Below the pieces are notes generated by a model. The model made no database searches and had not been told where the DNA came from. It saw only the letters and a program-made list of their open reading frames with translations. 64,000 bases of DNA, from contig NZ_JAUSUZ010000001.1 in the NCBI RefSeq assembly GCF_030813715.1, positions 3,348,001-3,412,000 of the forward strand. Reading direction: 5' to 3'. Every line of letters begins with the position of its first letter. Within the stretch, counting starts at the first letter, position 1. The stretch comes from Catenuloplanes indicus. GTDB lineage: Bacteria > Actinomycetota > Actinomycetes > Mycobacteriales > Micromonosporaceae. Made by a program: the position numbers and the translations under genes. Shown here one piece after another: positions 1 to 25,375 of the stretch.

Positions 1-175
1 CCAGGTCCATGACCTTGACGACCCAGACCCGCTCCCCCGTCTCCTTGTCCCGCGCCTGGTTGTCCGCCTCCCCACGCCGGTCAAAGTCGACCTGCGCATC
101 CACCCCCAGGCAGAGCGCCCCGCGCGGAAACACGTACTCGGACGGCACCGGCACCTTCAACGTCAGCGGAACCAC
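1..175 (-). CDS. Plasmid replication/integration/excision activator (Pra-like), N-terminal part
   Basis: The first 58 codons of a leftward gene that runs off the window edge. It starts at GTG 175 with a clear AAGGAGG ribosome binding site at 183-189. The translated start contains VFPRGALCLG, DFDRRG and RDKETGERVWVVKVMDL, the pattern seen at the N-terminus of Pra-type proteins of actinomycete integrative elements (a hydrophobic VFP-G patch, a DFD motif, then a DKxTGxxVWxVxVxD strand). Pra proteins switch on replication and excision genes of the element and are usually repressed by a GntR protein; such a regulator lies nearby at 688-1416. Family assignment rests on motif memory and only the N-terminus is available. 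Confidence 0.65.
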   Translation of the reverse strand, partial: MVPLTLKVPVPSEYVFPRGALCLGVDAQVDFDRRGEADNQARDKETGERVWVVKVMDL

Positions 176-356
176 GAACCAGCCTCCTTGCTACACAGCC
201 ATCCAAGTGATGACCGGTTATGCAAACAAGCTAGGCCGACTTGTGCACACAAGCAAGAAACGAGATTTGGTTTTCAGATCACGCACATCCGGGCGCTTCG
301 ATCCCGGCTTGACGAGCGGCTTCCGTCTGCGTGGACGCCGCACGTAGGGTGCCTTA

Positions 357-659
357 ATGATCGACGAGGAGCGGGCGCGGCAGATCGCGGAAGCGATTCT
401 GGCTCACGATGCGACCGAGCCCGGCACACCGCCCTTGGCCATCGTCAACGTCGAGGAACACCCGATCGGCTGGGTGCTCTACTACAACTCCGCGAAGTAC
501 GTCCGGACCGGCAACTTCATGGACGCCACCGTGGGAAACGCGCCAATCGTGGTCGAGCGGGCGACTGGCCGTGCACACATCACGGGCACAGCTCGAAGCA
601 CCGCCTACTACCTGGCCGAACTCGACGCGGGAACGCACTCATGCACACACTGCCCCTAG
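357..659 (+). CDS. YrhB/Imm35-type immunity domain protein
   Basis: A 100-residue protein consisting almost entirely of one YrhB/Imm35-like domain. An N-terminal helix (residues 1-20) is followed by the strand GWVLYYNSAKY (about 38-48) and the diagnostic GNAPIVVERATG segment (about 60-72), ending in a YLAEL helix. Related domains are predicted to neutralise polymorphic peptidase or glutaminase-like toxins in Actinobacteria and Bacillus. No toxin gene is adjacent: the neighbours are the Pra-like gene (divergent) and a GntR gene (convergent, 28 bp away). It therefore looks like an orphan immunity gene carried as element cargo. The ATG at 357 has no strong ribosome binding site. Function is inferred from the domain. 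Confidence 0.6.
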   Translation: MIDEERARQIAEAILAHDATEPGTPPLAIVNVEEHPIGWVLYYNSAKYVRTGNFMDATVGNAPIVVERATGRAHITGTARSTAYYLAELDAGTHSCTHCP

Positions 660-687
660 CGAGGCGGCAGGGCATGAAGCTGCTGAG

Positions 688-1416
688 CTAGGGCAGCGGA
701 TATGCGTCGTCGATCTCGTGCCGCGAACCGGGCATCACCAATTGGGACGACAGCACGGCCTCACCCGACGACTGATACACCGTGATCACGGTGCTGATCA
801 CGGACTCGTCGTACGGCACCTCAAGCCAGCCGGCCTCGCTCTCGGTGACGCGGCGAGCGGTCAGCTGCTCGATCACGTAGTCCCCGCGGATGCCGCGTAC
901 CCGGTTGATGTGGTCAAGGAGGCTGCCGGCAATCGGGTCCGGCTTGATGATGTCGGTGCCGACCGCCACATCCACCGGAACGTACGTCGACACCATGTCA
1001 ACCGGCCCGAACTCCGACACCGTGATCCGGTGCCGCACGTAGACCGGCGTCTCGTTCGGGATGTGCAGCGAAGCCGCAATCCGCGGCGGAGCTAGCACCG
1101 GCCCGACGTGCACGACGTTTGTGGAAACGGTCTCATCCAGATACAACGCTTCCCGCGCATACTGCGGCGAGACACCGGACGCGGACGGCCGGCCACGCAC
1201 GAAGTGCCCCTTGCCCTGCTGCGACTCGATCCACCCGTCCTGACGCAGGATGCCCAGCGCCTTCAACACGGTCGGCCGCGCGACCCCGAACTCCTTGGCA
1301 AGCGTGTTCTCCGACGGCAGCGAGGTCCCCGGCGGGTACGTGTCGCTCTCGATGCGCTCACGGATCGTGTTGAGCACCCGCAGGTACTTCGGCGTCGGCA
1401 CCTCGTACGCGCTCAC
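688..1416 (-). CDS. GntR-family regulator with UTRA domain (KorSA-like)
   Basis: A 242-residue HutC-subfamily regulator. The N-terminal winged helix-turn-helix covers about residues 10-74 (LPSENTLAKEFGVARPTVLK then GKGHFV), and a UTRA ligand-binding domain fills about 95-235. The GTG at 1416 gives the normal N-terminus for the family (a few residues before YLRVLNTIRERI); in-frame codons further upstream would add an unusual leader. It is the last gene of a leftward cluster of four. In pSAM2-type elements a GntR protein, KorSA, represses pra, so this is a reasonable candidate for the same job on the Pra-like gene at 1-175. That role, and any operator, are not shown by the sequence. Confidence 0.8.
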   Translation of the reverse strand: MSAYEVPTPKYLRVLNTIRERIESDTYPPGTSLPSENTLAKEFGVARPTVLKALGILRQDGWIESQQGKGHFVRGRPSASGVSPQYAREALYLDETVSTNVVHVGPVLAPPRIAASLHIPNETPVYVRHRITVSEFGPVDMVSTYVPVDVAVGTDIIKPDPIAGSLLDHINRVRGIRGDYVIEQLTARRVTESEAGWLEVPYDESVISTVITVYQSSGEAVLSSQLVMPGSRHEIDDAYPLP

Positions 1417-1493
1417 ACACACCCCGTCCGGATCAACAACCCACTTGACAACACAAGACACTAAACCTGATGCACATGAGCAGGCAAGAACCG

Positions 1494-1775
1494 TCACGCG
1501 TCGGAGGGCTCTTCAACCACTTGAACGCCGAACCACTCCGTCCGGACGCCAACTCTGCGAAGCCCGATCAGCTGCGGGCGAGTGGCGCCGGGCCGCCGCG
1601 CCGGCAACCGCAAGTAGCGACCGAACACCCGCAACGCCGCGCGCCGCAGCGGACACGGCCCTTCAAGATCGCAGACCGGGCACCGCCCGTCGCTGGCGAG
1701 ATCGGTATGCCGATCCAACTGGCGCTGCGCCTCCCGCAGTTCGGAGCGCGCCTCAGCGGTCAGGTAGACCGTCAT
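1494..1775 (-). CDS. Small hypothetical protein with CPVC...C zinc-knuckle motif
   Basis: A 93-residue protein of unknown function. The N-terminus is a charged helix (residues 4-23), followed by the cysteine cluster CPVCDLEGPC at about 32-41 that could bind zinc with a further partner, then a basic, arginine-rich C-terminal half. It overlaps the upstream gene by 4 bp (ATG at 1775 inside the preceding stop region), which suggests translational coupling within the leftward operon. Proteins of this size and pattern are common cargo in actinomycete integrative elements, but I cannot name the family. Confidence 0.6.
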   Translation of the reverse strand: MTVYLTAEARSELREAQRQLDRHTDLASDGRCPVCDLEGPCPLRRAALRVFGRYLRLPARRPGATRPQLIGLRRVGVRTEWFGVQVVEEPSDA

Positions 1776-2026
1776 CGCTCAACCTTCCTCATCGGTCGTC
1801 GCTCCGGCGCAGCACGTCGTAGACCACCGCGGAGCACGAAGACCTCTCGTCGTACGGTCGCTTCACCAGTTACGGGGTCGACGACGTAGCCGAGAACCCA
1901 GGCCCATCCGTCGTAGGTCGCCCGGTCGGACACCGAGATCACCCGCAGAATCAATGCATTGGCGCCGTTGAACTGCACCGACGCTTGCCGATCGACGATC
2001 AGAACGTCGCCGACTTTGGGTTCCAT
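1772..2026 (-). CDS. Hypothetical element protein
   Basis: An 84-residue protein of unknown function, apparently all-beta: alternating hydrophobic residues VGDVLIVDR, NALILRVISV and WVLGYVVDPVTG suggest a small barrel. The ATG at 2026 is preferred because GGAGGG lies 5-9 bases upstream; the longer reading from GTG 2038 would put that ribosome binding site inside the coding region. It sits between two small cysteine-rich genes in a leftward operon and overlaps the next gene by 4 bp. No enzyme motif is visible. Confidence 0.55.
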   Translation of the reverse strand: MEPKVGDVLIVDRQASVQFNGANALILRVISVSDRATYDGWAWVLGYVVDPVTGEATVRREVFVLRGGLRRAAPERRPMRKVER

Positions 2027-2076
2027 CGCACCCTCCACCGAAGCCGGAATGGCGAAGGGCGCCGAGGCGGGCCTTC

Positions 2077-2385
2077 CTACTCCTGTTGCGAGCCAGGAGA
2101 GAGAAGCGGCGCGAGCTTGGCCCGCCTCGACGCCACATCAGGACGCGACTGCTTCCCAGAGCCGCCACAGTCCAGGCACGGCCGACGAAACGACGCGTCG
2201 GCCCGTTCGCAGGTGTAGGCCATCACGCGCATGGCCGACCGCCTGACCACGTACTTCCAGCCGAACCCCCGACACGAGGCACAGACCAGAAACTCCACAG
2301 CAGCGGCTGGAAGCGGATGCCTGACCTGCTCGTCCCGATCCGGGCACCGCTCGGAGACACCCGTCTCGATCTCGCTCGCCGACAT
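2077..2385 (-). CDS. DnaJ-type zinc-finger-like small protein
   Basis: A 102-residue protein with two CxxCxGxG-type units, CASCRGFG at about 36-43 and CLDCGGSG at about 70-77, resembling half of the zinc-binding cysteine-rich region of DnaJ. An extra Cys precedes the second unit. There is no J domain, so it is not a DnaJ. The ATG at 2385 has a GGGAGG ribosome binding site. It is the first gene of the leftward cluster 2385-688 and lies just downstream of a strong predicted promoter. Function unknown; zinc binding is inferred from the cysteines. Confidence 0.6.
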   Translation of the reverse strand: MSASEIETGVSERCPDRDEQVRHPLPAAAVEFLVCASCRGFGWKYVVRRSAMRVMAYTCERADASFRRPCLDCGGSGKQSRPDVASRRAKLAPLLSPGSQQE

Positions 2386-2407
2386 CCGACCTCCCAGCCA
2401 CCACCAT

Positions 2408-2458
2408 TAGAGCTAGCTCTATTAGAGCCACGGCAGGTCAGCAGTGTCAATAGAGCTA
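2408..2458. promoter_or_regulatory. Probable GntR operator: TAGAGCTAGCTCTA palindrome plus half sites
   Basis: A perfect 14-bp palindrome TAGAGCTAGCTCTA (2408-2421) is followed by TAGAG at 2423 and TAGAGCTA at 2451-2458. The group overlaps the -10 and predicted start of the leftward promoter and lies 65-115 bp upstream of the rightward GntR gene. Palindromes of this size between divergent genes, one of them GntR, commonly are GntR operators. The regulator that binds is inferred. Confidence 0.5.
2421..2450 (-). promoter_or_regulatory. Promoter of the leftward operon (TTGACA - 18 bp - TCTAAT)
   Basis: On the minus strand TTGACA (2445-2450) and TCTAAT (2421-2426) are separated by 18 bp, close to the housekeeping consensus and unusually good for a high-GC genome. 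It points at the gene starting at 2385. The -10 lies inside a repeated TAGAG motif and directly beside a palindrome, so it is likely controlled by a repressor. Confidence 0.6.
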
Positions 2459-2522
2459 CCCCTAAGAAAGAAACTGGCGCTCCGAGGTGCTAGCTTCAGG
2501 GCGCTCGATCGAGGAGGAACCA

Positions 2523-3273
2523 TGACCACCGGCTATCGCGAGCTGGCAGCCATCCTGCGGACGGCGATCCTGCAAGGCGAGTACGCCGAGGGCACCACGC
2601 TGCCCAAGCAGGACGAGATCGCGACGCTGCACGGCGTCAACATCAAGACCGTCCGCCAAGCGGTACGCATCCTCGAAGCCGAAGGTCTCGTGACCCCGGT
2701 GTCGTCCGCCCGCGCCTGCCGATGAAGCGGCTCGGCGCCGACCGCTACGCGAAGAGCAAGTGGAAGGGCACCGGCCTGGTCGCGTTCGCTGCCGACCGCG
2801 AGGCCACCGGCCGGCCATGGCAACCCGGAGACCAAACTCAGACGGTACGGATGACGACCGCGGACGCCGATATCGCCGAAGCGCTCGGCCTGGAGGTCGG
2901 TGATCCGGTCTACGAGCGGGCACGCCTGGTCAAGGAAGCCAACGTCCCGACGCACACCCTGACCAGCTACTACCGCCCGGAAGACGTCGAGGGCACTCCG
3001 CTCGTCGACGCGAAGGCCGGCCCGGCCGGCCGCGGTGGCGGTTTCGCCGTCCTCACCAGCCAGGGCTTGGAGCCGGACAACATGACGGAGACGATCTGCG
3101 CCCGGATGCCGTCACCCGACGAGATCGAACAGCTCCAACTACCCGCCGGCGAACCGGTGATGATCCTGCACCGCACCACCTACACGGCCGAGGGACGCCC
3201 GATCGAGTTCGCCCGCGGCGTCCACGCAGCTTCCCGCTTCGCCTGGACCTACCACTTCCAGATCCCCGACTGA
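2523..3273 (+). pseudogene. GntR/UTRA regulator split by a frameshift
   Basis: Codons from ATG 2523 (ribosome binding site GAGGAGG) encode a complete GntR winged helix (YRELAAILRTAILQGEY through LEAEGLVTPV) but stop at 2725. A UTRA domain continues in the next frame to 3273, starting with VVRPRLPMKRLGADRYA. Intact relatives have about five further residues (an RRRGT-like turn) at the junction, which fits a small out-of-frame deletion around 2698-2706. Remarkably, the stop of the first frame and an ATG of the second overlap as ATGA (2722-2725), so the two halves could still be made as separate, translationally coupled polypeptides of 67 and 183 residues. Otherwise a pseudogene. The first half alone could still bind the operator at 2408-2458. 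Confidence 0.7.
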
Positions 3274-3294
3274 CCCACGCTCGGAGGCCCCGCC

Positions 3295-3960
3295 ATGCCG
3301 AACAGCACCGCCGTCATCCCCGCCGAGATTCGCGAGGATGTCGAGACCCTCTGGAACTACCACCAGATGGGCCACGAAGTCCGCCCGACCGACATCGGCA
3401 TCGGGCTCGGCAGCCACGACATCGGCGTGGCCATGATCGGCACTGACCTCTACCACCGCGGCATGTACCCGATCCTGCTCTTCACCGGCGCGAACGCCCC
3501 ACCTACGGTCGAGGTCTTCCCACGCGGCGAAGCCGTGCACTACCGCGAATACGCCCTTGCGCACGGCGTCCCCGACGAGGCGATCCTCATCGAGACCAAG
3601 GCCCGGCACACCGCCGAGAACATCGTGCTGTCCCGCGAACTGCTGGAAGAGCGGGGCTACAAGGACATCAAGACCATCACCCTCATGTCCCGCCCCTACC
3701 AGCAGCGACGCGGCTACTCCATTTGCAAGAAGCACTGGCCCGAGGTCGAGGTCATCTGCGCTTCACACCCCCTGCCGATCGACGACTACTTCGCCTTCAT
3801 CGGCAACGCCAAAAAGGTCATCGACACCATGGTCGGCGATACCCAGCGCATCGACACCTGGGCGGAAGCCGGGTGGGCAATCCCCCAGCCGATGCCCGAC
3901 TCAGTCCGGATGGCATACGGCCGCCTCGTGGCAGCCGGCTACACAAGCCGCCTGGTCTGA
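3295..3960 (+). CDS. YdcF/ElyC-family (DUF218) protein
   Basis: A 221-residue soluble DUF218 protein. The family's Rossmann-like pattern is visible: GIGLGSHDIGVA (about 35-46), LLFTGANAPPT (about 61-71), GEAVHYREYALAHGVPDEAILIET (79-102), then RHTAENIVLSRELL (104-117) and ITLMSRPYQQRRGY. Relatives bind nucleotides or act on envelope precursors; here no membrane segment or signal peptide is present, so a cytoplasmic role is more likely. It starts 22 bp after the broken GntR gene with a good GGAGG site and probably shares its transcript. GntR-YdcF pairs recur in actinomycete integrative elements. Substrate unknown. Confidence 0.75.
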   Translation: MPNSTAVIPAEIREDVETLWNYHQMGHEVRPTDIGIGLGSHDIGVAMIGTDLYHRGMYPILLFTGANAPPTVEVFPRGEAVHYREYALAHGVPDEAILIETKARHTAENIVLSRELLEERGYKDIKTITLMSRPYQQRRGYSICKKHWPEVEVICASHPLPIDDYFAFIGNAKKVIDTMVGDTQRIDTWAEAGWAIPQPMPDSVRMAYGRLVAAGYTSRLV

Positions 3961-4361
3961 GGGTTCAAGCTCGAAGCCGGCTTCTCCCGGCCTTTCCCTC
4001 TGCTCCCGGAATCGCAAGGAGCACGGGCCGCGCCATTTACCCTGCCCAGGGCGCGCGACATGGACCCGAGCAGCCGGGAGAACCCCTCAAGGTCTTCCTC
4101 CACAAGGATCAGCTCCATCACCGGCTCCTCAATGCCGACGGCATACGCCTCGAACTCGACCAAGGTCACGTCCGGCAACAACGTGCACCTGAGCAGGCGG
4201 ATCCCAACCCGAGTACCCAACGCATCACTCAATTGCATGAATTCCATGCGCGATCGATGCCACGTGCCCGCCGATTCCACCCAGCACTCAGCCGGATCAC
4301 ACCAGAGCGGGTGATCGTCGCTCTTTGTTTCCGTCTCGCCTTCAATAGTTTCCGCAGACAT
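3939..4361 (-). CDS. Hypothetical protein with WCDPAEC motif
   Basis: A 140-residue protein of unknown function. Near the N-terminus is HPLWCDPAECWVESAGTWHRS (split here as WCDPAEC, about 20-26, plus a following WH), a Cys-Cys-His arrangement often seen in short actinobacterial proteins encoded next to XRE/DUF397 genes. The middle contains two beta-rich stretches. The start at ATG 4361 has a GAGGAG site; the longer reading has none. It is divergent from the XRE gene at 4539 and its 3' end overlaps the YdcF gene by 22 bp on the opposite strand. Confidence 0.55.
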   Translation of the reverse strand: MSAETIEGETETKSDDHPLWCDPAECWVESAGTWHRSRMEFMQLSDALGTRVGIRLLRCTLLPDVTLVEFEAYAVGIEEPVMELILVEEDLEGFSRLLGSMSRALGRVNGAARAPCDSGSRGKGREKPASSLNPQTRRLV

Positions 4362-4538
4362 CAACTCTCCTCGGACATAGGTGCCAGTCGCGCCGGCTGC
4401 CATGGCCGCCTCGCCACAAGAACTATTTCCGATAGCACCGCTCGATGGAATCGTTCCGACTCCCCATGACCGACAGTCCGAAGCCGTTAGCCAGCAAGGG
4501 AATCCGAGATCATTCATGAGGAATGGCTGTGGTACGCC

Positions 4539-5378
4539 ATGATCGGCGACCAATCACGTACCCCACACCCGACCCTGGTCTCCCTGGGCAGAGAACTGCG
4601 GATCGCACGCGAATCTCGCGGCATAACCCAACAAGATCTGGGCGCAGAGATCCACTTCTCGGACAGCCAGATTTCCGCCGTTGAGACCGGCCGGCGCCTA
4701 CCCAGCGACGCCCTCATCCGGCGTGCCGACGAGACACTCGGCACAGCCGGCCTTCTCATCCGCCTCTTGGAAACCGCGCAGGCGACCGCAACCCGAGAGA
4801 CTCTGCCCGAGTGGTTCCGCCCCTGGGCAGACATCGAGCAGGCCGCCACCACGCTCCGCTCATACCAACCACTCGTCTTGGACGGCCTACTACAGACCCC
4901 CGCCTACGCGCACGCCATGTTCAAAACCGGCGACCCAGCAGCCGACAAGGACACGCTCCAGCGCGCAGTAACGGCCCGCATCGACCGGCAACAGATACTC
5001 AGCCGCCCGAACCCACCGCGGCTCATCACGATCCTCGAAGAGGCAGTTCTCTACCGCCCCGTCGGCGCCACCCCTGAGCTGATGCGCCATCAACTCGATC
5101 ACCTGGCCACGGTCGGCCGCACCGGCACCATCGAGATCCACATCCTCCGCACCGAGGTAGGCACACACCGAGGCCTAGCCGGCGCCTTCGCACTCGCCAC
5201 GGTCCCAGGCCATCCTGAGGTCGCGTACATCGACACTCAGCTCAGCGGCCTGGTCATCGAGGCCACGACAGACGTTGATGCCATCCGCCACATCTGGGAA
5301 GGTCTCCTAGGGGAGGCCCTTCCTCAACGCCAGTCGCTCAAGCTGATCCAGGAGGCATCAGAGTCATGGACCACTTGA
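4539..5378 (+). CDS. XRE-type regulator with DUF5753 domain
   Basis: A 279-residue transcriptional regulator. An XRE helix-turn-helix occupies about residues 14-68 (LRIARESRGITQQDLGAEIH then SQISAVETGRRLP), and a DUF5753 domain follows from about 95 to 270 (containing LDGLLQTPAYAHAM and a conserved GTHRGLAG). This architecture is widespread in Streptomyces and relatives, where it is paired with a short DUF397 protein and affects development or antibiotic synthesis. The downstream DUF397 gene overlaps it by 13 bp, so the pair is translationally coupled. Target genes are not identifiable here. Confidence 0.85.
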   Translation: MIGDQSRTPHPTLVSLGRELRIARESRGITQQDLGAEIHFSDSQISAVETGRRLPSDALIRRADETLGTAGLLIRLLETAQATATRETLPEWFRPWADIEQAATTLRSYQPLVLDGLLQTPAYAHAMFKTGDPAADKDTLQRAVTARIDRQQILSRPNPPRLITILEEAVLYRPVGATPELMRHQLDHLATVGRTGTIEIHILRTEVGTHRGLAGAFALATVPGHPEVAYIDTQLSGLVIEATTDVDAIRHIWEGLLGEALPQRQSLKLIQEASESWTT

Positions 5379-5557
5379 CTTGGAAGAAGTCCACCCGCAG
5401 CAGCCCCAACGGCGGCCATTGCGTCGAGGTTGCGACAGCATCGAGCGATCACGTCCTAATACGGGACAGCAAAGCCGTCCGCGGCCCACTCCTCCGGATA
5501 AGCAGCCCATCATGGAAAGCATTCATCCAAACACTCACGCACCAGGCCAACACTTGA
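5366..5557 (+). CDS. DUF397 protein, partner of the XRE regulator
   Basis: A 63-residue protein that is a single DUF397 domain: WKKSTRSSPNGGHCVEVA (residues 6-23), LIRDSKAVRGP and a final W-F helix. Such proteins accompany XRE/DUF5753 regulators and are thought to act as antagonists or partners. The ATG at 5366 has an AGGAGG site inside the preceding gene, with which it overlaps by 13 bp. Confidence 0.85.
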   Translation: MDHLTWKKSTRSSPNGGHCVEVATASSDHVLIRDSKAVRGPLLRISSPSWKAFIQTLTHQANT

Positions 5558-5680
5558 GATGCTGGTCAAATCGCGCCTCTACAGCAAGACCACACCACAC
5601 GCCGCCGCAATACACCTACGCCGCAGGTGAGGCCAAAGTCAACCAACGCGTCGCTTCAGCGATTGGGATATCCGGCAAGT

Positions 5681-6175
5681 TCAGAAGGAGCGCGAAGTGA
5701 AGCTCATGTTCGCATCACGAAGGTTACCCAACGTAATACGAGGAAAGCCCAATCTAGTCGACATGGAACTAATTGCCTCCCGAACGTACGGAAACGCTGT
5801 AGGCAGAGCTACCTTCTGAGCAAAAACCGCAATTTCCTCACGAGCGCAGCCCTGAACCTCAGTCCAGCTTCCCGACGGAACTTCATACTCGCAGACAATT
5901 ACGCATTGAAGCCGCGCCAACAAATGCCCGTCGCTGAATTCATCATCGTCCGCATTCTCGTCGTCCATCTCCACATCAAAAAGAGAGCACCGAGCTACAA
6001 ATCGGCAGAGTATGCCCTCTTCATCATCCTTAAGCGCCCAAGCAGTTCCCAGCGCAAACTGAAGACCTTCCACTTTTGCTAGGCGCTTCAAGGAAGCATT
6101 GAAGGACTGAACCACAACTTCCGCAAGCTCAACAGTATCCAACACACTTCGCGCGCTCACCGAAGTATCACCCAT
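5681..6175 (-). CDS. SecB-like chaperone of a toxin-antitoxin-chaperone module
   Basis: A 164-residue protein, third gene of a leftward three-gene module. The SecB-like signature is in the C-terminal part: LPTAFPYVREAISSMSTRLG (about 126-145) then FPRITLGNL, matching the SecB pattern of a FPxxR helix followed by a GxPxLxL turn. The N-terminus (SARSVLDTVELAEVVVQSFN) and a central acidic loop EMDDENADDDEF are less typical. In Mycobacterium tuberculosis the SecB-like Rv1957 protects the antitoxin HigA1 from aggregation and degradation; the same role is inferred here. The start ATG at 6175 overlaps the antitoxin stop as TGATG. The gene is clearly AT-richer than the chromosome. Confidence 0.7.
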   Translation of the reverse strand: MGDTSVSARSVLDTVELAEVVVQSFNASLKRLAKVEGLQFALGTAWALKDDEEGILCRFVARCSLFDVEMDDENADDDEFSDGHLLARLQCVIVCEYEVPSGSWTEVQGCAREEIAVFAQKVALPTAFPYVREAISSMSTRLGFPRITLGNLRDANMSFTSRSF

Positions 6176-6645
6176 CAAGAAACAGCCTCATTAAAGACGA
6201 TGAAGACGTTACCATCAAGGCGTTGCGACCTACCGCCAGAATGACTTTCCTCGCCAAGCTGATTCCAATTAACGTCGCCCAAATCGGAATTTGCCAAGGA
6301 ACGAGGCGAATCTTCCCTCACGGCCTTGTGCGTGGTCCAGGCCACCCTCATTCTCCTTACAGCATCTTCCCGGGGGCGCCCCAGAGGCACGGCCTTAATT
6401 TCCAGTTCGCATCCGAGCTCATGCAGATACTCGGCTAGAGTCGAAATTCGGACATTTCCATCCCCCCGAAAAACCTGATTAACCGCCGACTTCCGAATGC
6501 CGAGACGGCCAGCAAGTTCCGCTTGACTCACACCCGAGCGTCGAAGCGCTGAATGCAAAACCTTAAGGACCCCATACCGTAAGCGTGAGACCGAGAGCGC
6601 ACGAGCACCTTTAGGCGTTGCTACCAACTGATCATAAAGCGTCAT
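6175..6645 (-). CDS. higA: HigA-type antitoxin with C-terminal extension
   Basis: A 156-residue XRE-family protein. The helix-turn-helix spans about residues 28-72 (LRRSGVSQAELAGRLGIRKS and AVNQVFRGDGNVRISTLAEYL). Beyond it is a tail of roughly 70 residues, longer than in ordinary HigA, ending in GNVFIVFNEAVS. In chaperone-dependent modules such a tail is the chaperone addiction sequence, which makes the antitoxin unstable unless the SecB-like partner binds it; the hydrophobic end here fits that role by inference. It overlaps the toxin gene by ATGA (6642-6645) and the chaperone gene by TGATG. Probably represses its own promoter through the palindrome at 7047-7062. Confidence 0.75.
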   Translation of the reverse strand: MTLYDQLVATPKGARALSVSRLRYGVLKVLHSALRRSGVSQAELAGRLGIRKSAVNQVFRGDGNVRISTLAEYLHELGCELEIKAVPLGRPREDAVRRMRVAWTTHKAVREDSPRSLANSDLGDVNWNQLGEESHSGGRSQRLDGNVFIVFNEAVS

Positions 6646-7055
6646 AGCAGCTCATCCTCTCCCCTCACCCGCATTGCCAATCTTTTATACCTAGGAGGAC
6701 ACTCTCTACCATTTTTTAAAAAGCCATTCGTCAAACGAACGGCCCTGCATCGGGAATGGGAATTTGCATAATAGAAAGGCAATCTAACATCCACCGCTTT
6801 AATTTCCCAGATATCGTTACCCAAGCTATTCAACTGCAAAGGAACGTCTAGAGTTCCAGTTCGCGCAAACTCCTCGAACCTAATAAGAACATCCGCAATT
6901 CTTCCGAAATCTTCTTTTCTTATTAACTCTTCGAGGAAAGCATCGGCAGGAGCTGCTCCGTTCGCCATGCGCGCAGCCTCGATGACCAGCACACCACCTC
7001 GCTCGTACCGAATCCTCCCGCAGTCTTCGCAGCTTGAGCGACCGAGTACAGTCAA
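6642..7055 (-). CDS. higB: HigB/RelE-superfamily toxin (Gp49-like)
   Basis: A 137-residue protein of the RelE/HigB superfamily. The core runs PLQLNSLGNDIWEIKAVDVR (about 73-92), then LPFYYANS (beta strand) and RLTNGFLKNGRECPPRYKRLA (about 107-127), the usual arrangement of a strand pair followed by GFxK and P-helix. Members cleave mRNA on the ribosome. The TTG start at 7055 is supported by GGAGGT 6 bases upstream, although an operator overlaps it; V22 or M30 are possible alternatives. It is first in the module, as in M. tuberculosis higB1-higA1-Rv1957. Codon use is AT-rich compared with neighbours, pointing to recent acquisition. Confidence 0.7.
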   Translation of the reverse strand: MTVLGRSSCEDCGRIRYERGGVLVIEAARMANGAAPADAFLEELIRKEDFGRIADVLIRFEEFARTGTLDVPLQLNSLGNDIWEIKAVDVRLPFYYANSHSRCRAVRLTNGFLKNGRECPPRYKRLAMRVRGEDELL

Positions 7056-7082
7056 GACTGTACCTCCATGTCCGGCATTATG
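7047..7082 (-). promoter_or_regulatory. Promoter and autoregulatory operator of the TA-chaperone module
   Basis: On the minus strand an extended -10 (TGG followed by CATAAT, 7077-7082) predicts a transcript starting near 7070. Immediately downstream is a perfect inverted repeat TACAGTC-N2-GACTGTA (7047-7062), which straddles the TTG start codon of the toxin. This is the expected place and form for a HigA-type operator. No good -35 is seen, as is usual with an extended -10. Confidence 0.6.
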
Positions 7083-7512
7083 CCATGCTGATCACAGGAA
7101 TGACACTTCAAGATCGCACTAGGTGATCGACACCCGCTCCTGAGAAGTACACGCTCAAGCAGCAGTCGGCAAGCAGCACGTGGCAGGCCAGCAACGGACA
7201 AACGGTGCAGATAACGCTAAGAGGCGCGGAATCACCCGAACGGGCCACAGCGAACACCTGGATGGCTGACTTGGATGCCAAATCGGCCCATACATTCCGG
7301 AACGGCCGATCAAGGTTCTATATCGCACAAAGTCGATAAAGAATCGCTACGTATTCTACGTTACCCGCCGGGACTTGAAAGGGGCTATCTCACCTCCCGC
7401 TAGTTCAGTTTCTCCTCGTGTCGAATCTTGAGAGTCGCTGCCGCGACAATAGCAATCTGCCGAACTACTCTCTTTTGAATCAAGGCGCCGCGCCAGCGCG
7501 GCGCAGGGCGTC
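7083..7512. other. Gene-free stretch upstream of the toxin module
   Basis: About 430 bp without a convincing reading frame, ribosome binding site or RNA gene. It is AT-richer than the chromosome, like the adjacent module, and may be decayed element DNA. I see nothing else in it. Confidence 0.4.
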
Positions 7513-7965
7513 GTGTCGCCCTGCGGGCGGCCTCCGGCCGTCCTCGGTCACCACGACGCCGGCGACTACCGTGGCTTGGTGGCAGTCGATGAGGTTCTCT
7601 CGTTAGCGGGTCTGCGCTTGCTGCACCTACGGCATTCGCCCGGCTCAGGGACGCAGCAGCTCCTACTGATCAGTGGCCGGTCCAAGGCCGCATGGTTGGA
7701 CTACGACGTGTGTTCGCGTTGTCGACGGGGCCACGTATGGAATCTCACGGTCCATGCTCCACACCAGCGCCAGGGCTTGGGCCTTTACCTGCTCAGCATT
7801 TGCCCGGAGCAGAGCCCCCGGCTTTCGTTGGACTACCATCGGGCAGCGAGGAAGCGCGAAGCGGTGGGTGAAGGTGGGCGAGCGGACCGGAGCGGGATAC
7901 CAGCCCGAGAACCCTTGCCGATGCTTGAAGAACGCCACTCCGTTCTGGCGCCGACAGCTCGATAG
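7513..7965 (+). pseudogene. Decayed GNAT-like acetyltransferase
   Basis: Two overlapping frames together read like one protein. Frame one gives AAWLDYDVCSRCRRGHVWNL and TVHAPHQRQGLGLYLL (7675-7800), the acetyl-CoA-binding QRxGxG motif of GNAT enzymes. The continuation, PGFRWTTIGQRGSAKRWVKV and the tail CRCLKN, lies in the next frame (about 7815-7955). A single frameshift near 7800-7815 therefore separates motif A from the C-terminus. No start codon with a ribosome binding site is evident. Similar cysteine-containing GNAT relatives occur as cargo in actinomycete integrative elements. Family identity is by motif only. Confidence 0.5.
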
Positions 7966-8307
7966 CTGGCGATCGAAAAGAGCCACCCGTCGGTAGCGGC
8001 CCGACGATCGCTGTGGGTGGCTGGGTGCCGTAGTGGGTTCCGGCGATCGGCTGCCGCGCCGCTACGCGGCTTGCCACCGGTCTTCTTGATCGCGTGCCGC
8101 GCGGGGTGCCGGCGCCACGGCAAGCCGCCCCAGACCGCGTACGGTCCGGGGCGGGAAGCCGCCTTGCGGCGCCGGAGCGCCGCGCGGCGGAGGTTGAGCG
8201 GCCGTGCCACTAACTCAGGCCGCAAGCGGCCCTGTACGGTCATGATCGGGCAGGACGGCACCCGCGCTGACCAGGCAAAACCGGACGATCATCCCAACGC
8301 GGCGAGA
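7966..8307. other. Gene-free end of the element
   Basis: About 340 bp between the decayed GNAT gene and the att site. It is GC-rich with several short GGCAAGCCGCC-like inverted pieces but no gene, ribosome binding site or complete tRNA half. The sequence just upstream of 8308 does not pair with the tRNA 3' half, which confirms that the tRNA is incomplete. Confidence 0.4.
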
Positions 8308-8352
8308 TCTTCCAAACTGATTACGCGGGTTCGATTCCCGTCGTCCGCTCCA
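8308..8352 (+). other. attR: 3' end of a tRNA-Gly(TCC) gene
   Basis: The 45 bases match the 3' half of a glycine tRNA: anticodon loop CTTCCAA (anticodon TCC at 8311-8313), 3' side of the anticodon stem ACTGA, a short variable loop, a perfect T arm GCGGGTTCGATTCCCGT, the acceptor strand GTCCGC, discriminator T and an encoded CCA. The preceding bases cannot form the D arm or the 5' anticodon stem (GAGAT instead of the needed TCAGT). It is thus the duplicated core left by site-specific integration. The intact tRNA-Gly is predicted at the left end, outside the window. Confidence 0.85.
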
Positions 8353-8405
8353 CTTCGGGTCACTGTGTCAGCCGAAGGCGCTGACCAGGGCGTTCCGCAT
8401 CAAAC

Positions 8406-8424
8406 CTGGGGGCCGAGCCCCCAG
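8406..8424. terminator. GC-rich hairpin downstream of attR
   Basis: CTGGGGGC-CGA-GCCCCCAG forms an 8-bp stem with a 3-base loop. It lies between the att site and the 3' end of the leftward HNH gene, so it could end transcription from either side. There is no T tract, which is common in high-GC genomes. Confidence 0.45.
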
Positions 8425-8501
8425 ACCCCCACGGTGCGGGATGGTCGCGTTCCGGCCTGGTTGGCCTTGATAATCCGTCCCATGGGCTCGGCGAAGTCGC
8501 G

Positions 8502-9032
8502 TCAGCTCGGAGTGTCAATGGCTTCCTCTCCCGTAGCAAGGGTGGGGGCAATCAGCTCAGCGGGCGGTGAAGTGTGCATTCCGGCGATGTAGGGCCGCGA
8601 TGCGACCAGGCCGAACTCCACGAGAGCACGTGTCTGTTGGTCAGCCAGTTCGTAGAGCTTTGCCATGACGATCTTCAACTCGTCCACGTCGGGCTCGTAC
8701 CGGTACTCGGTGATGTAGGCGCTGATCGCCTCTCTCCGCGGCTCGTCCAGCATCGGGTGGCCGTACCACGGATCGTCCTTCTTGGCGTTGTTGCAGGGGC
8801 GGCAGGCAGGCACGATGTTGCCCCATGCATGCAGGCCGACTGATGCCCGATTCATAGGCACGACGTGTTCGTCGACCGGCGAGGCGTCGGCGTCACCGCA
8901 GTACGCACAGGCATGGTCGAAGCGGTTCAGCAGCTCCTTGTTCATGCTTCGGAAGGGCGGGAAGCCGCGGTTGATGTCGTACTCGCGTCCGGCTTCCTGG
9001 AGGGAACAGCCGCACGACCCGGTTGGGGACAT
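8502..9032 (-). CDS. HNH endonuclease-domain protein
   Basis: A protein of about 176 residues with an HNH nuclease motif. CAYCG and a following DEHVVPMNRAS (the His of the motif), then NIVPACRPCNNAKKDD give the C-x2-C ... H ... N ... C-x2-C zinc-bound betabetaalpha-metal core (about residues 42-85). The C-terminal half is helical and unassigned. The start is uncertain: ATG 9032 is one choice, ATG 8945 another, and the frame stays open to 9101, so the N-terminus may have been altered by the nearby integration. First chromosomal gene after the att site. Such stand-alone HNH proteins often are phage- or defence-related, but nothing specific can be said. Confidence 0.6.
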   Translation of the reverse strand: MSPTGSCGCSLQEAGREYDINRGFPPFRSMNKELLNRFDHACAYCGDADASPVDEHVVPMNRASVGLHAWGNIVPACRPCNNAKKDDPWYGHPMLDEPRREAISAYITEYRYEPDVDELKIVMAKLYELADQQTRALVEFGLVASRPYIAGMHTSPPAELIAPTLATGEEAIDTPS

Positions 9033-9281
9033 CTGAGTAGCTGCGGATCGCCATGACCTATGACTACCACCCACGCACCGAGCAGCAGTGCGAGGCGGCA
9101 TCGGTCCGTGACGGTCACCCGGGCAACCGGCTTTCGTGGTGGCGTCCGTTGATCATCTGCCGCGCCGCTGCTCGATTTCACGCCCTATCTCTGGTTGCGG
9201 CCCGACGAGGTGGATCGAGAGCAGGCGCCGGTGAGCGGTGGCAGTGCGAAGGAGGGCAGGCTGATCGATAGGTTGGCGGGT

Positions 9282-10631
9282 ATGACCGATCTTCTGCCTG
9301 AGACCCGCCGCGCCCTTCGTCACCGTCTCGCCGTGGGGCAGAGCAGCGGGCGGACGCCGTCGGTGGTGGCGGCCGTGGTGCGGGACGGCGGGCTGATCTG
9401 GGCCGACGGGTGGGGCACCGTGGACGGGGTGGTTCCGGATGCGGACGTCCAGTACCGGATCGGCTCGATCACCAAGACGCTGACCGCGATCCTCGTGCTC
9501 CGCCTCCGCGACGAAGGGCTGCTTGACCTCGACGACCCGCTGGACGCGCACCTGCCGGGGACCGCGGCTGGCAGCTCGACGGTCGGGGCGCTGCTGGCGC
9601 ACACGGCGGGGCTGGTGGCGGAGCCGCCGGGGCCGTGGTGGGAGCGGACGCCGGGGGCGCTGCGGCCCGAGCTGGCGGACGTGCTGCCGGAAACGCCGTA
9701 CGTGTATCCGCCGGGCCGCCGCTTCCACTACTCCAACCCTGGTTACGCCCTGCTCGGCGCGCTGATCGAGAAGGTGCGCGGCGTGTCCTGGGCGGAGGTG
9801 CTGCGCGCGGAGGTGCTGGAGCCGCTCGGCATGGACCGCACCGGGCCGGAGCCGGTGGCGCCGCACGCGAGCGGCTGGGCCGTGCATCCCTGGGCCGACG
9901 TGCTGCTGCCGGAGCCGGCGCAGGATCTCGGCCGGCTGGTGGCGGCCGGGCAGCTCTGGTCGACCGCAGCCGACCTGGCCCGGCTGGCCGGGTTCCTGCT
10001 GGACGGCGACGAGCGGGTGCTGCGCCGGGCGTCGGTCGAGGAGATGTGTGCGGCGCGGACCACCGAGTACGGGCTCGGCGTGCAGATTCTTCGTGCGCCG
10101 GACGGCCGGGTGCTCACCGGGCACACCGGGTCGCTGCCCGGGTTCGTGTCCACGGTCGCGGTCGATCCGGCGGAAGGGCTCGGTGCGGTCGTGCTCGGCA
10201 ACGTCACGGCGGGGCTGGAGGTCGGCGTCATCACGGCGGACCTGATCCGGATCGTGGCGGAGCGGGAGCCGCGCATCCCGGAGCCGTGGCGTCCGCTGCG
10301 GTCGGTGGATCCGGAGCTGCTCGCGCTGGCCGGGCCGTGGTACTGGGGTCCGAACCCGTACGTGCTGCGCCCGGCGGCGGACGGCTACCTGGAGCTGTCC
10401 GCGCTGCGGGGTGGCGGGACCCGCGCGACCCGGCTGCGGCCGGACCCGGACGGTGGCTGGACCGGGCTGAGCGGGTATTTCGACGGTGAGCGCCTGCGGA
10501 TCGAGCGGGACGCGGCCGGCGCGGTCACGCACCTGGACATCGGCACGTTCGTGTTCACCCGCCAGCCGTACGACCCGGCCTCGCCGATTCCCGGCGGCGT
10601 GGATCCGGCGGGGTGGCGCGGGAGCGACTGA
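9282..10631 (+). CDS. Serine hydrolase of the beta-lactamase/PBP4* family
   Basis: A 449-residue class C beta-lactamase-like hydrolase. The SxxK motif is SITK (about 62-65), the Tyr motif is YSN within HYSNPGY (about 152), and the third motif is HTG within GHTGSLPG (about 281-284). A C-terminal beta-rich domain (about 350-430) follows, as in esterase/D-aminopeptidase relatives. No signal peptide is evident, so a cytoplasmic esterase or peptidase role is as likely as cell-wall work. The ATG at 9282 is chosen because it immediately precedes the conserved domain; the upstream part of the frame looks non-coding. It precedes an RDD protein by 105 bp. Confidence 0.8.
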   Translation: MTDLLPETRRALRHRLAVGQSSGRTPSVVAAVVRDGGLIWADGWGTVDGVVPDADVQYRIGSITKTLTAILVLRLRDEGLLDLDDPLDAHLPGTAAGSSTVGALLAHTAGLVAEPPGPWWERTPGALRPELADVLPETPYVYPPGRRFHYSNPGYALLGALIEKVRGVSWAEVLRAEVLEPLGMDRTGPEPVAPHASGWAVHPWADVLLPEPAQDLGRLVAAGQLWSTAADLARLAGFLLDGDERVLRRASVEEMCAARTTEYGLGVQILRAPDGRVLTGHTGSLPGFVSTVAVDPAEGLGAVVLGNVTAGLEVGVITADLIRIVAEREPRIPEPWRPLRSVDPELLALAGPWYWGPNPYVLRPAADGYLELSALRGGGTRATRLRPDPDGGWTGLSGYFDGERLRIERDAAGAVTHLDIGTFVFTRQPYDPASPIPGGVDPAGWRGSD

Positions 10632-22722: not shown

Positions 22723-22783
22723 AGCCTGCATCGCCGTGGGATGCCGGGCTACGGCGAGGCCCCCACTTCGACACAGGCTCTAG
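22719..22783. terminator. Long-loop inverted repeat between convergent genes
   Basis: The arms CTAGAGCCTG (22719-22728) and CAGGCTCTAG (22774-22783) are perfect complements separated by 45 bp. Each arm contains the stop codon (TAG) of the gene next to it. It may work as a shared terminator, though the loop is long. Confidence 0.4.
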
Positions 22784-23232
22784 CCGGCCGCCGGGTAGCG
22801 GAGGAAGTGGGCGTAGTCCGCGCTGGTGCCGCCGCGCCGCTGCCGGGGTATCCGGGGCCGCGCGGCCGGCTCGCCGATCGAGATCGCCAGGACCGCGGGA
22901 TCGTGCGTGTGTGCCGCCCGGCTGGCGGCCGGCCCGGTGAAGCCGGCGCAGGAGTAGAGGACGCCGCGGTCCGCGCCGACGTCCTCCAGCTTGGCCACGA
23001 AGTAGTCCACGCAGGAGATGCCGACCGGCCGGTGCTGCTGGCGACACTCGACCGCGACCGTGACCGGCAGGCCGGCCACCGCGCCGTAGATCATCACCTG
23101 CACGTGCCGCCGCGCGCCGCTCAGCCGCCCGTCGTGCCGCCGGTTGTAGATCACCCGGGCGTGGTCGAACGCGGCCAGCAGCCGGGTCAGCGACCGCTCG
23201 TACCGCTTCAGCTGGAGGTCGGTGGGAGACAT
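22780..23232 (-). CDS. Mrr-like restriction-endonuclease-fold protein, paralogue 1
   Basis: A 150-residue protein, last of three tandem paralogues. The core LSGARRHVQVMIYG, VTVAVECRQQHRPVG and VDYFVAKLEDVGADRGVLYS then AGFTGPAASRAA matches the Mrr-like restriction endonuclease fold, in which an Asp is followed by (D/E)xK. Here the Asp is Gln (HVQV) and the lysine is Arg (ECR), so two of three catalytic positions differ and nuclease activity is doubtful. The ATG at 23232 lies 6 bases after a TANNNT -10, so the mRNA is probably leaderless. A role in defence or in DNA binding can only be guessed. Confidence 0.6.
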   Translation of the reverse strand: MSPTDLQLKRYERSLTRLLAAFDHARVIYNRRHDGRLSGARRHVQVMIYGAVAGLPVTVAVECRQQHRPVGISCVDYFVAKLEDVGADRGVLYSCAGFTGPAASRAAHTHDPAVLAISIGEPAARPRIPRQRRGGTSADYAHFLRYPAAG

Positions 23233-23281
23233 CCGTCGACGTTACGAACGTGCTTCATACCGGTGTCGCCCCGGTTGTCCG
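23233..23281 (-). promoter_or_regulatory. Leaderless promoter of paralogue 1
   Basis: Reading leftward: a 16-bp motif CGGACAACCGGGGCGA (23281-23266), 21 bp, the -10 TAACGT (23244-23239), 6 bp, then the ATG at 23232. The motif is 12/16 identical to that of paralogue 2, and spacing is the same in all three genes. Confidence 0.55.
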
Positions 23282-23293
23282 TCCTTCGCCCGA

Positions 23294-23815
23294 TCAGGGG
23301 GTCCACAGGTCCGCGGTGCCGCCCAGGCGCAGGAAGAGCGCGAAGTCCGCCTGGTCGACGTCGGCGGAGTCGTGCGGCGGCAGGCCGTCGCGCACCATCC
23401 GGCCGTCGCCGAGCGTGATCGCCATCACCGGCGGGCTCTGCGCGTGCGCGGCGCGGGCCCGGGCGCGGTCGGTGAAGCCGGTGCAGGAGTAGATCACGCC
23501 ACGGTCCGCGCCGATGTCGAGCAGCTTGCCGACGAACCGGTCGACCGCGCCGACGTCCACCGGCCGGCGCCGCCGCTGCACGCACTCGATCGCGGCGGTC
23601 ACCCGTACACCCAGCACGGGGCCCCGCACCAGGACGTCGACGCGGCGTAACGACCGGCTGAGCCGGCCCTCCACGCGACGGTTGTATCCGACCTCGACGG
23701 GTGGCTCGAAGCCACCGAGCAGCCGGCTGATCGAGGCGTCGAAGAGCGTCAGGCGACGGAGCGAGTCGGGCTCTTCGTCGGGGTCCGGCGGCAGTTCCGC
23801 ATCCGCTGGGTACAC
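23294..23815 (-). CDS. Mrr-like restriction-endonuclease-fold protein, paralogue 2
   Basis: A 173-residue protein, middle of three paralogues. An acidic N-terminus (ELPPDPDEEPD) precedes the domain, with NRRVEGRLSRSLRRVDVLVR keeping the Asp, but AIECVQRRRRPVD has Val where the lysine of (D/E)xK should be. The conserved VDRFVGKLLDIGADRGVIYS and GFTDRARARAA follow. The start is set at GTG 23815, not at TTG 23857, because TTG 23857 lies within the shared upstream motif while GTG 23815 keeps exactly the promoter-to-start spacing of the other two paralogues. The C-terminus ADFALFL matches paralogue 3. Catalysis is doubtful. Confidence 0.6.
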   Translation of the reverse strand: MYPADAELPPDPDEEPDSLRRLTLFDASISRLLGGFEPPVEVGYNRRVEGRLSRSLRRVDVLVRGPVLGVRVTAAIECVQRRRRPVDVGAVDRFVGKLLDIGADRGVIYSCTGFTDRARARAAHAQSPPVMAITLGDGRMVRDGLPPHDSADVDQADFALFLRLGGTADLWTP

Positions 23816-23865
23816 AACTTTGAGCGTACGGGTGGAGCGGGTGGGCTCATCGCCCAAATTGTGCG
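23816..23865 (-). promoter_or_regulatory. Leaderless promoter of paralogue 2
   Basis: Reading leftward: motif CGCACAATTTGGGCGA (23865-23850), 21 bp, -10 TACGCT (23828-23823), 7 bp, then GTG 23815. The motif is 15/16 identical to that in front of paralogue 3. Confidence 0.6.
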
Positions 23866-23896
23866 TCTTTGTCGATAATTTCGGAGAATGTTGTCA

Positions 23897-24388
23897 TCAG
23901 TCGGCGCAGCGCCACAGGAACAGCGCGAAGTCCGCCTCGGTGATCTCGTCCACGCCGTGCGGCGGCAGCGGGTCCACCTCGCGCCGTGGCCGCGGGATCC
24001 GCGGCCCGCCGCCCAGCGACACCGCCATCACCGCGGGCCAGCGCGCCGCCGCGGCCCGCGCACGGGCACACCGGGTGAAGCCGGATCGCGAGTAGAGCAC
24101 GCCCCGGTCCGCGTCCACGTCCAGCAGCTTGCCGACGAACCGCTCGACCACACCCACGTCCGCAGCCCTACGGGCCTGCCGGCACTCCACGGCCACCGTC
24201 ACGCCCGCGCCGAACACCCGTCCACGCACCAGCAGATCGACCTGTCGCGGCGATCCGCTGAGCACGCCCGGCACCCGTCCGTTCACCGCCACCTCGGCGT
24301 GGCCGTCGAAGCTGGAGAGAAGCCGCGTGATGGACAATTCGTACCGCTGGAGCGGTGAAACGCACGAAAAGAGGTCGAAGACGGTCAC
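23897..24388 (-). CDS. Mrr-like restriction-endonuclease-fold protein, paralogue 3
   Basis: A 163-residue protein, first of three paralogues in transcription order. The core reads GVLSGSPRQVDLLVRG (Asp kept), VTVAVECRQARRAAD (Arg in place of the catalytic Lys) and VERFVGKLLDVDADRGVLYS, then GFTRCARARAAAA. The end EADFALFLW is shared with paralogue 2. An extra short N-terminal segment MTVFDLFSCVSPLQRYELSI precedes it. The GTG at 24388 lies 6 bases after a TANNNT -10. The three copies are diverged (roughly half identical by eye), so the duplications are old, yet each kept the same promoter layout. Confidence 0.6.
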   Translation of the reverse strand: MTVFDLFSCVSPLQRYELSITRLLSSFDGHAEVAVNGRVPGVLSGSPRQVDLLVRGRVFGAGVTVAVECRQARRAADVGVVERFVGKLLDVDADRGVLYSRSGFTRCARARAAAARWPAVMAVSLGGGPRIPRPRREVDPLPPHGVDEITEADFALFLWRCAD

Positions 24389-24437
24389 CCTGCGAAACTA
24401 TGAGCGGGCTTTGGGTGAGCGTCGCCCAGATTGTGCG
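24389..24437 (-). promoter_or_regulatory. Leaderless promoter of paralogue 3
   Basis: Reading leftward: motif CGCACAATCTGGGCGA (24437-24422), 21 bp, -10 TAGTTT (24400-24395), 6 bp, then GTG 24388. The 16-bp motif sits where an activator overlapping the -35 would bind. Confidence 0.6.
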
Positions 24438-24472: not shown

Positions 24473-25282
24473 CTACAGCGGCACGAAGAACGGTGAGTTC
24501 AGCGCCGGGTGCCGGGCCTGAAGGCGGTCGTACGCCCGCACCAGGTCGTCGCGGCTGAGCCAGACCGGCGGCGTGGTCTCCAGCCGCTTGAGGCGTTCGC
24601 CGACGGCGAGTGCGGCCAGGTCCTCGGCGAGGCGATCGAGCGCGATGCCGCAGTCGAAGCCGTGCGGCACGATCCGGACGCGTTCCAGCAGGTGACGGCC
24701 CTCGGGCAACTCGACCCAGGCCCAGCCCTCGGCGACGCCGCCCGGCGCGGTGACGTGCAGGCCGCGGATGATCGGGTCGGCCAGGTCGCGGCCGACGTAA
24801 GCGTCCACCGCGGCCGCGCGGGCCAGCGCGCTCAGATCGTTGACGAAGCCGTCCCGGCCGTCGGGGAGCCGGCCGACGATGTCCCGGAAACCGGAGCCGG
24901 AGGCGTCCCGGAACGCGCGCGCGTCCAGCAGGTACTCGACGACCCGTCGCGCCTGCGTGGCGCCGAGGATCGGCGAGACCACGCGCAGCCATTCCAGGCC
25001 GATCGTGCCGCACACGGTGGCCAGCATGCGGTCCAGCCGCTCGTCCGTACCGGCCGGGTCGGCGAACTCGGCCGCGAACACCGGCAGCCGGGTGCCCGGG
25101 TCGAGCGCGACGAAGTCGCACCGGGTGCGCAACGCGGTGTTCCACTGGTTCGGGCTGACGCCCTCGGGCCGGCGCGCGACCAGTTGGCTGAGCCTTCGGT
25201 CAGGCTGGACGACCCAGCGGCCGCGCGCGAAGAGCTGCTCCTCCGCGGTGGCGACCGGGCGCAGCGGTGACGGGGTGCTCAT
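24473..25282 (-). CDS. DUF2726-like PD-(D/E)xK-fold protein
   Basis: A 269-residue protein. Residues 40-75 (RTRCDFVALDPGTRLPVFAA then EFADPAG) resemble the DUF2726 nuclease-like domain, where D...D and an E on the next strand bind metal; the usual lysine is not seen. The rest is a helical domain ending in a WLSRDDLVRAYDRLQARHP segment. It lies directly upstream of the three Mrr-like paralogues on the same strand and may belong with them functionally. The ATG at 25282 is chosen because the longer frame runs into the lon promoter. A TACAGT -10 lies 8 bases before the start. Family call is tentative. Confidence 0.5.
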   Translation of the reverse strand: MSTPSPLRPVATAEEQLFARGRWVVQPDRRLSQLVARRPEGVSPNQWNTALRTRCDFVALDPGTRLPVFAAEFADPAGTDERLDRMLATVCGTIGLEWLRVVSPILGATQARRVVEYLLDARAFRDASGSGFRDIVGRLPDGRDGFVNDLSALARAAAVDAYVGRDLADPIIRGLHVTAPGGVAEGWAWVELPEGRHLLERVRIVPHGFDCGIALDRLAEDLAALAVGERLKRLETTPPVWLSRDDLVRAYDRLQARHPALNSPFFVPL

Positions 25283-25375
25283 GACCCACCACTGTAGGGA
25301 CCCGGACCGGAAACACGGGGTCCGCCGGACGTCGTGTCGCGGGTCACTCACGGGAAGACGGACACGGTGGGCGAG

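Follow-up and report, generated by a model that had tools for sequence, protein, structure and literature searches.

Three tandem Mrr-like genes with a common promoter arrangement

The DNA analysed here, referred to as the window, is a 64,000-nucleotide stretch of Catenuloplanes indicus (RefSeq assembly GCF_030813715.1, contig NZ_JAUSUZ010000001.1, positions 3,348,001 to 3,412,000) and belongs to a 9.25-Mb genome, G000, one of a set of five genomes (G000–G004) of this genus of soil actinomycetes. It contains three tandem genes, A, B and C (Table 1), whose products all score above the gathering cut-off of 21 bits for the restriction endonuclease-type profile Mrr_cat (PF04471), with 24.3 bits for C, 30.0 bits for B (in a version starting one codon early) and 29.3 bits for A. 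The first-pass annotation of this DNA was right in describing three tandem Mrr-like paralogues. Protein C shares 49% identity with B and 56% with A, A and B share 54%, and the profile scan revealed no second domain in any of the three. The start of gene B was placed at the GTG at 23815 rather than at the TTG at 23857 given by the open reading frame tool. At the (D/E)xK site of the nuclease core the proteins read VECR (A), IECV (B) and VECR (C), and C additionally carries Gln in place of the catalytic Asp, exactly the losses that had been noted earlier. Each gene is preceded by a 16-bp motif, a 21-bp spacer, a TANNNT −10 element and 6–7 bp to the start codon (6 bp for A, 7 bp for B and 6 bp for C), again as first described; with the motif of B as reference, that of A matches at 15 of 16 positions and that of C at 12 of 16.

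Table 1. Positions of the genes, promoter elements and neighbouring features in the window
Feature	Coordinates	Strand	Details
Gene A (copy 3 in the first-pass annotation)	23897..24388	-	GTG start; 163 aa; Mrr_cat-like; D51 present; R70 at lysine position
Gene B (copy 2)	23294..23815	-	GTG start; 173 aa; Asp present; Val at lysine position
Gene C (copy 1)	22780..23232	-	ATG start; 150 aa; Asp replaced by Gln; Arg at lysine position
16-bp operator-like motif of A	24422..24437	-	CGCACAATCTGGGCGA; centre −41.5
16-bp motif of B	23850..23865	-	CGCACAATTTGGGCGA; centre −42.5
16-bp motif of C	23266..23281	-	CGGACAACCGGGGCGA; centre −41.5
−10 element of A	24395..24400	-	TAGTTT; 6 bp before GTG
−10 element of B	23823..23828	-	TACGCT; 7 bp before GTG
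−10 element of C	23239..23244	-	TAACGT; 6 bp before ATG
DUF2726-like gene	24473..25282	-	Weak match, 16.9 bits (cut-off 24.7); between A and lon
16-bp pattern before lon	25359..25374	+	CGGACACGGTGGGCGA; 51 bp before lon start codon (25410); possible further target

A Catenuloplanes family under purifying selection

A, B and C are present in all five Catenuloplanes genomes and a fourth paralogue, D, in four of them, G000 being the exception; a further paralogue, E, was found only in G002, and G000 also encodes a distant lysine-bearing relative, F. Each genome thus holds three to five family genes. Phylogenetic analysis placed A, B, C and D each in its own clade with weakly supported order among them, in a tree that was rooted at its midpoint and whose long branches call for caution. 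Duplication is clear from the tree and it is old, so that the earlier proposal of an old triplication stands as to origin and age, but the outcome is four to five paralogues and not merely a triplet. The order GT2, C, B, A, DUF2726-like gene, lon is kept in G000, G001, G003 and G004, and lon, C, E, B, A and D are spread across about 16 kb in G002. Values of dN/dS, from the Nei–Gojobori (NG86) estimator only, were 0.08–0.34 for A–C and 0.17–0.43 for D, and did not exceed 0.43 in any of 36 orthologue pairs. The family is under purifying selection, and these values argue against decay into pseudogenes.

A search of 200 genomes of the family Micromonosporaceae at E ≤ 1e-10, with no more than 18 candidates scored in each genome, gave matches in the five Catenuloplanes genomes alone. 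Among 396 genomes of the phylum, eight matched at the same threshold; the seven besides the window's own comprised four with the lysine, two reading ECR and one that was not read. At E ≤ 1e-6, 21 of 394 genomes of the class matched. The nearest relatives found outside the genus are single Mrr_cat proteins of Nocardia (L054 and L055; 47% and 45% identical by tblastn), in which the D...ECK residues are intact. No published account of this family was found by title or abstract start in the open literature. Both the fold and the leaderless type of promoter are of kinds already known; what appears new is an Mrr family that is genus-specific, multi-copy and lysine-less and that has a promoter of its own.

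The promoter is conserved and nearly exclusive to the family

All 19 A–D genes (A, B and C from five genomes and D from four, the outlier E of G002 being left out here and in the residue counts below) carry the pattern CGSACAnnnnGGGCGA, a 21-bp spacer, TANNNT and 6–7 bp to the start codon. Only two deviate, each slightly: the last motif base is changed in D of G003, and the spacer is 22 bp in C of G002. The motif thus proved to be conserved in relatives, and this common promoter presumably reflects a common regulator, as had been suggested from the window. With the start codon taken as +1, the motif is centred at −41.5 in 13 genes and at −42.5 in six. About −41.5 is the usual position of an activator that touches RNA polymerase (class II), and the location of the motif suggests an activator site. 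No −35 hexamer is conserved between the motif and the −10 element of the A–D promoters. TANNNT about 12 bp before the start codon is described as the usual mark of leaderless genes in actinobacteria (PMC3160421), and the placement expected of such a gene was found in 19 of 19 cases, pointing to a leaderless start of transcription. By eye, TAGATT also lies 6 bp before the ATG of the Nocardia exalbida relative L055 (5955–5970), where the 16-mer is lacking; the leaderless arrangement may predate the 16-bp motif.

Counts within the window are insufficient to establish the arrangement: three matches were found at up to three mismatches against 1.16 expected, three being reached in 10 of 100 shuffles, and in the genome the 16-mer alone at up to two mismatches gave 10 matches against 11 for its reversed control, without enrichment. 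Its significance comes from the recurrence of the whole arrangement in relatives, and on this ground a chance origin was rejected. Comparing paralogous promoters within a genome gave identity at 307 of 324 positions (95%) for the 12 fixed motif bases, 172 of 504 (34%) for the spacer, 28 of 108 for the inner four motif bases and 92 of 216 for the eight upstream bases. The motif is under selection, since identity has fallen to 26–43% in the spacer, the inner bases and the upstream flank but not in the motif. This decay also bears on a plainer account, which we consider unlikely, namely an ordinary lineage-specific duplication in which the promoters are alike through copying, a general regulator acts on them, and the proteins differ in minor ways and have gained no new role. 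Gene duplication is clear, and leaderless genes with TANNNT are common in actinobacteria, at 19.2% on average according to PMC3160421, but the motif has been kept while its surroundings diverged, and a general regulator should have other targets, of which none but lon was seen.

The fixed bases were picked for being conserved, and a pattern scan is therefore a fairer test than the identity count. The exact motif, spacer and −10 element occur at 17 sites in the five Catenuloplanes genomes, all of them at A–D genes, and the 200 Micromonosporaceae genomes hold these 17 and one site elsewhere, in another genus (reversed control, 2). When one mismatch was allowed, the five genomes gave 21 matches (reversed control, 3): the 17 exact sites, D of G003 and three copies of one further site, in G000, G003 and G004, which in G000 sits within a long frame. 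A promoter model, R1, applied to the best 150 of 8091–9552 first-look candidates per genome, scored the 19 training sites of the genus at 37–53 bits, the promoter of E in G002 at 20 bits and other sites at no more than 16.6 bits; it gave no match at six relatives outside A–E, including the two of Nocardia (L054 and L055) and one from the same genome.

Exact 16-mers number 70 in the five genomes (reversed control, 34), with 18 at family genes, five at lon and 47 elsewhere. Among these 47, 43 are in frames whose third-position GC is of coding type (GC3 − GC2 above 0.3), and the remaining four (L182, L189, L198 and L201) have no coding start 33–36 bp downstream. In three of the 43 (L175, L176 and L191) a possible start lies internally, 34 bp downstream; these were taken as coding because TANNNT is missing at the family spacing within one mismatch. 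A wider regulon was accordingly set aside, as the 16-mers beyond the family and lon are mostly coding and none of the rest suitably precedes a coding start; the family, with lon as a possible addition, seems to make up the whole regulon.

Because the motif is nearly private, the family proteins might themselves bind it and regulate their own promoters, the family then being its own regulator. In a broader form of this idea, A–D would be their own activators, at lon as well, cleavage would have been lost, and promoter and family would have co-evolved as a self-contained, self-duplicating regulon. We regard both forms as quite improbable. The full promoter does stand at family genes and almost nowhere else, no separate regulator gene bearing the site was seen among the 16-mer matches (with four of 47 left unassigned), and the A and C proteins are basic (isoelectric point (pI) 9.0–10.5). 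On the other hand, a regulator's site need not be present at its own gene, B and D range from acidic to neutral (pI 5.0–7.0), and we know of no PD-(D/E)XK domain acting as a sequence-specific promoter activator.

Catalytic residues and fold

In the numbering of protein A, the relevant residues are Asp51, Glu68, Cys69, position 70 (where the lysine is expected) and Lys87, which lies in a helix. Position 70 is occupied by Arg in 11 of the 19 proteins, by Val in four and by Cys, Leu, Asp and Lys in one each, so that the ExK lysine is missing from 18. It varies between fixed neighbours: Glu68 and Cys69, like Lys87, are identical in 19 of 19 and Gln71 in 18. It is not the loosest column of the core, however: of 93 columns, five hold a larger number of residue types and 15 show higher entropy. 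The Asp51 column reads Asp in 10 proteins (all A and B, 10/10), Gln in all five C and Glu in all four D. E of G002 reads ERH at the catalytic site. Structure prediction of protein A gave a PD-(D/E)XK fold, which is nuclease-like; a non-nuclease fold, the outcome that would have spoken against the first description, was not seen. A sequence search of the PDB found no relative, its two matches (E = 0.4 and 0.62) being taken as chance. As position 70 admits Val, Leu, Cys and Asp, and Asp51 is replaced in two of four groups, ordinary metal-dependent cleavage appears to have been lost and the proteins are probably non-cutting.

The invariance of Glu68 and Lys87 leaves room for another reading, that of active nucleases with a rebuilt centre in which the lysine would have shifted off the ExK strand onto the helix that follows, as Lys87, with Glu68 still binding metal. 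In 14 of 19 members the protein contains no lysine other than Lys87. ECR at ExK together with Lys at the Lys87 column is also read in two distant relatives from other actinobacteria (L128, and L130, which is the same place as L213); the alignment holds no further ECR relatives from outside the genus. Lysine migration is among the changes described for the PD-(D/E)XK superfamily (PMC1185551). However, Lys87 is also found in relatives that retain ECK (L054, L055 and L127 in the alignment; L211, L212 and L214 by eye) and therefore did not arise as compensation, which weakens the idea that it makes up for the lost residue. The replacement of Asp by Gln in 5/5 C and by Glu in 4/4 D proteins likewise speaks against a rebuilt centre, and we hold this reading to be rather unlikely, if less so than the other two.

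lon and neighbouring genes

The 16-mer of the A–D promoters also lies 51–52 bp ahead of the lon start codon in all five Catenuloplanes genomes. At 27 lon loci of other genera of the family, no exact copy was found within 150 bp upstream of the start of the match (which at three of the loci is residue 3; five further lon matches without a locus were left out). Directly after the lon 16-mer, a HAIR-like element was recognized by eye; none was seen in the family promoters, and it was dismissed as a part of them. In Streptomyces, lon belongs to the HspR/HAIR regulon, as stated in PMC13033682, which cites Sobczyk 2002. The DUF2726-like gene occurs near lon in 5/5 Catenuloplanes genomes and was not found within 1.5 kb upstream of lon at the 27 other loci.

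D adjoins a NACHT-like gene (below cut-off) in G001, and in G002 it has a reverse transcriptase and a GmrSD-type gene nearby (L086:5466-9392, L053:139-3908). These neighbours are suggestive of a defence island, but those in G003, the third genome viewed, are by eye unlike defence genes, and the idea was not retained. The PADLOC models of anti-phage systems gave no strong match to A–C, the matches to PDC-S02 being weak (E = 0.0011–0.031). At the start of the window, positions 1–8000 differ in composition, with a G+C content of 56–66% against about 68–78% elsewhere and strong AT and GC skew, and may be a mobile or foreign stretch.

A model for the family and its promoter

We favour, with moderate confidence, the view that A–D form a Catenuloplanes-specific Mrr-type family that is probably non-cutting and stands under one dedicated, predicted activator at a shared leaderless promoter. 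A lysine-bearing Mrr-type protein, like those of Nocardia, would have entered or arisen in the Catenuloplanes ancestor; its gene would then have lost the lysine and been duplicated together with one promoter under one activator. The activator would bind CGSACAnnnnGGGCGA centred at about −41.5, beside RNA polymerase on the TANNNT −10 element, and the activated promoters, lacking a conserved −35, would initiate leaderless mRNAs. Selection would have kept the fold, Glu68, Cys69 and Lys87, and the operator in every A–D copy. As a guess, the pocket around these three invariant residues may serve to hold nucleic acid or a partner protein, and, equally speculatively, the products may act in a response to stress or invaders in which the Lon protease also takes part.

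Several observations weigh against this view. The D orthologue of G002 has ECK, and given this and the never-varying Lys87 and Glu68, cleavage may persist; the model of protein C falls below usable confidence (pLDDT 52.5). The 16-mer by itself is near chance level, and the pattern is not strictly private, as a match in a non-genus genome, G013 (L135, about 1498–1543, minus strand), reaches 25.3 bits with model R1, above the 20 bits of the true, untrained promoter of E in G002. By eye, one frame ends within the L135 motif and another opens 4 bp past it; the match was taken as chance because its −10-like part falls within a reading frame. The numbers of candidates scored in the 200-genome search and with model R1 also bound the claims of genus specificity and near-exclusivity. 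Finally, lon has no TANNNT at the family spacing (21 bp downstream) and is a possible, not a proven, co-target, whose site may be coincidence.

Comparison with known systems

The family resembles Mrr_cat proteins in its above-cut-off profile scores and in the PD-(D/E)XK fold of the model of A, but differs in the absence of the ExK lysine from 18 of 19 members, in the loss of Asp from C and its change in D, in having no second domain that could be seen, and in a shared dedicated promoter. The Nocardia Mrr_cat proteins are of similar length and differ by their intact D...ECK residues and the lack of a match to R1. NA-iREase1 (PF22722, NACHT-associated inactive restriction endonuclease) is alike only by name as an inactive domain of this fold: A scores 11.8 bits against a cut-off of 27, B and C are unmatched, and the family proteins are single-domain. 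PafBC-type promoters likewise have an activator that works with the housekeeping polymerase. The PafBC site, TTGTCRGTG-N8-TANNNT, is unlike the family motif in sequence and closer to the −10 element.

PMC1185551 gives RecC and RPB5 as precedents for inactive domains of this fold. The RecC nuclease-like domain and the N-terminal domain of RPB5 belong to subunits of large complexes, with 8% identity across aligned residues for the structure 1dzf. The picture that emerges suggests an old nuclease turned to something new under one dedicated switch. To our knowledge, few inactive PD-(D/E)XK members have been described, mostly within big complexes. A stand-alone, lysine-less family makes the fate of a nuclease fold after cutting stops directly testable, and it offers a clean regulon of one regulator and one family, with a possible link to Lon.
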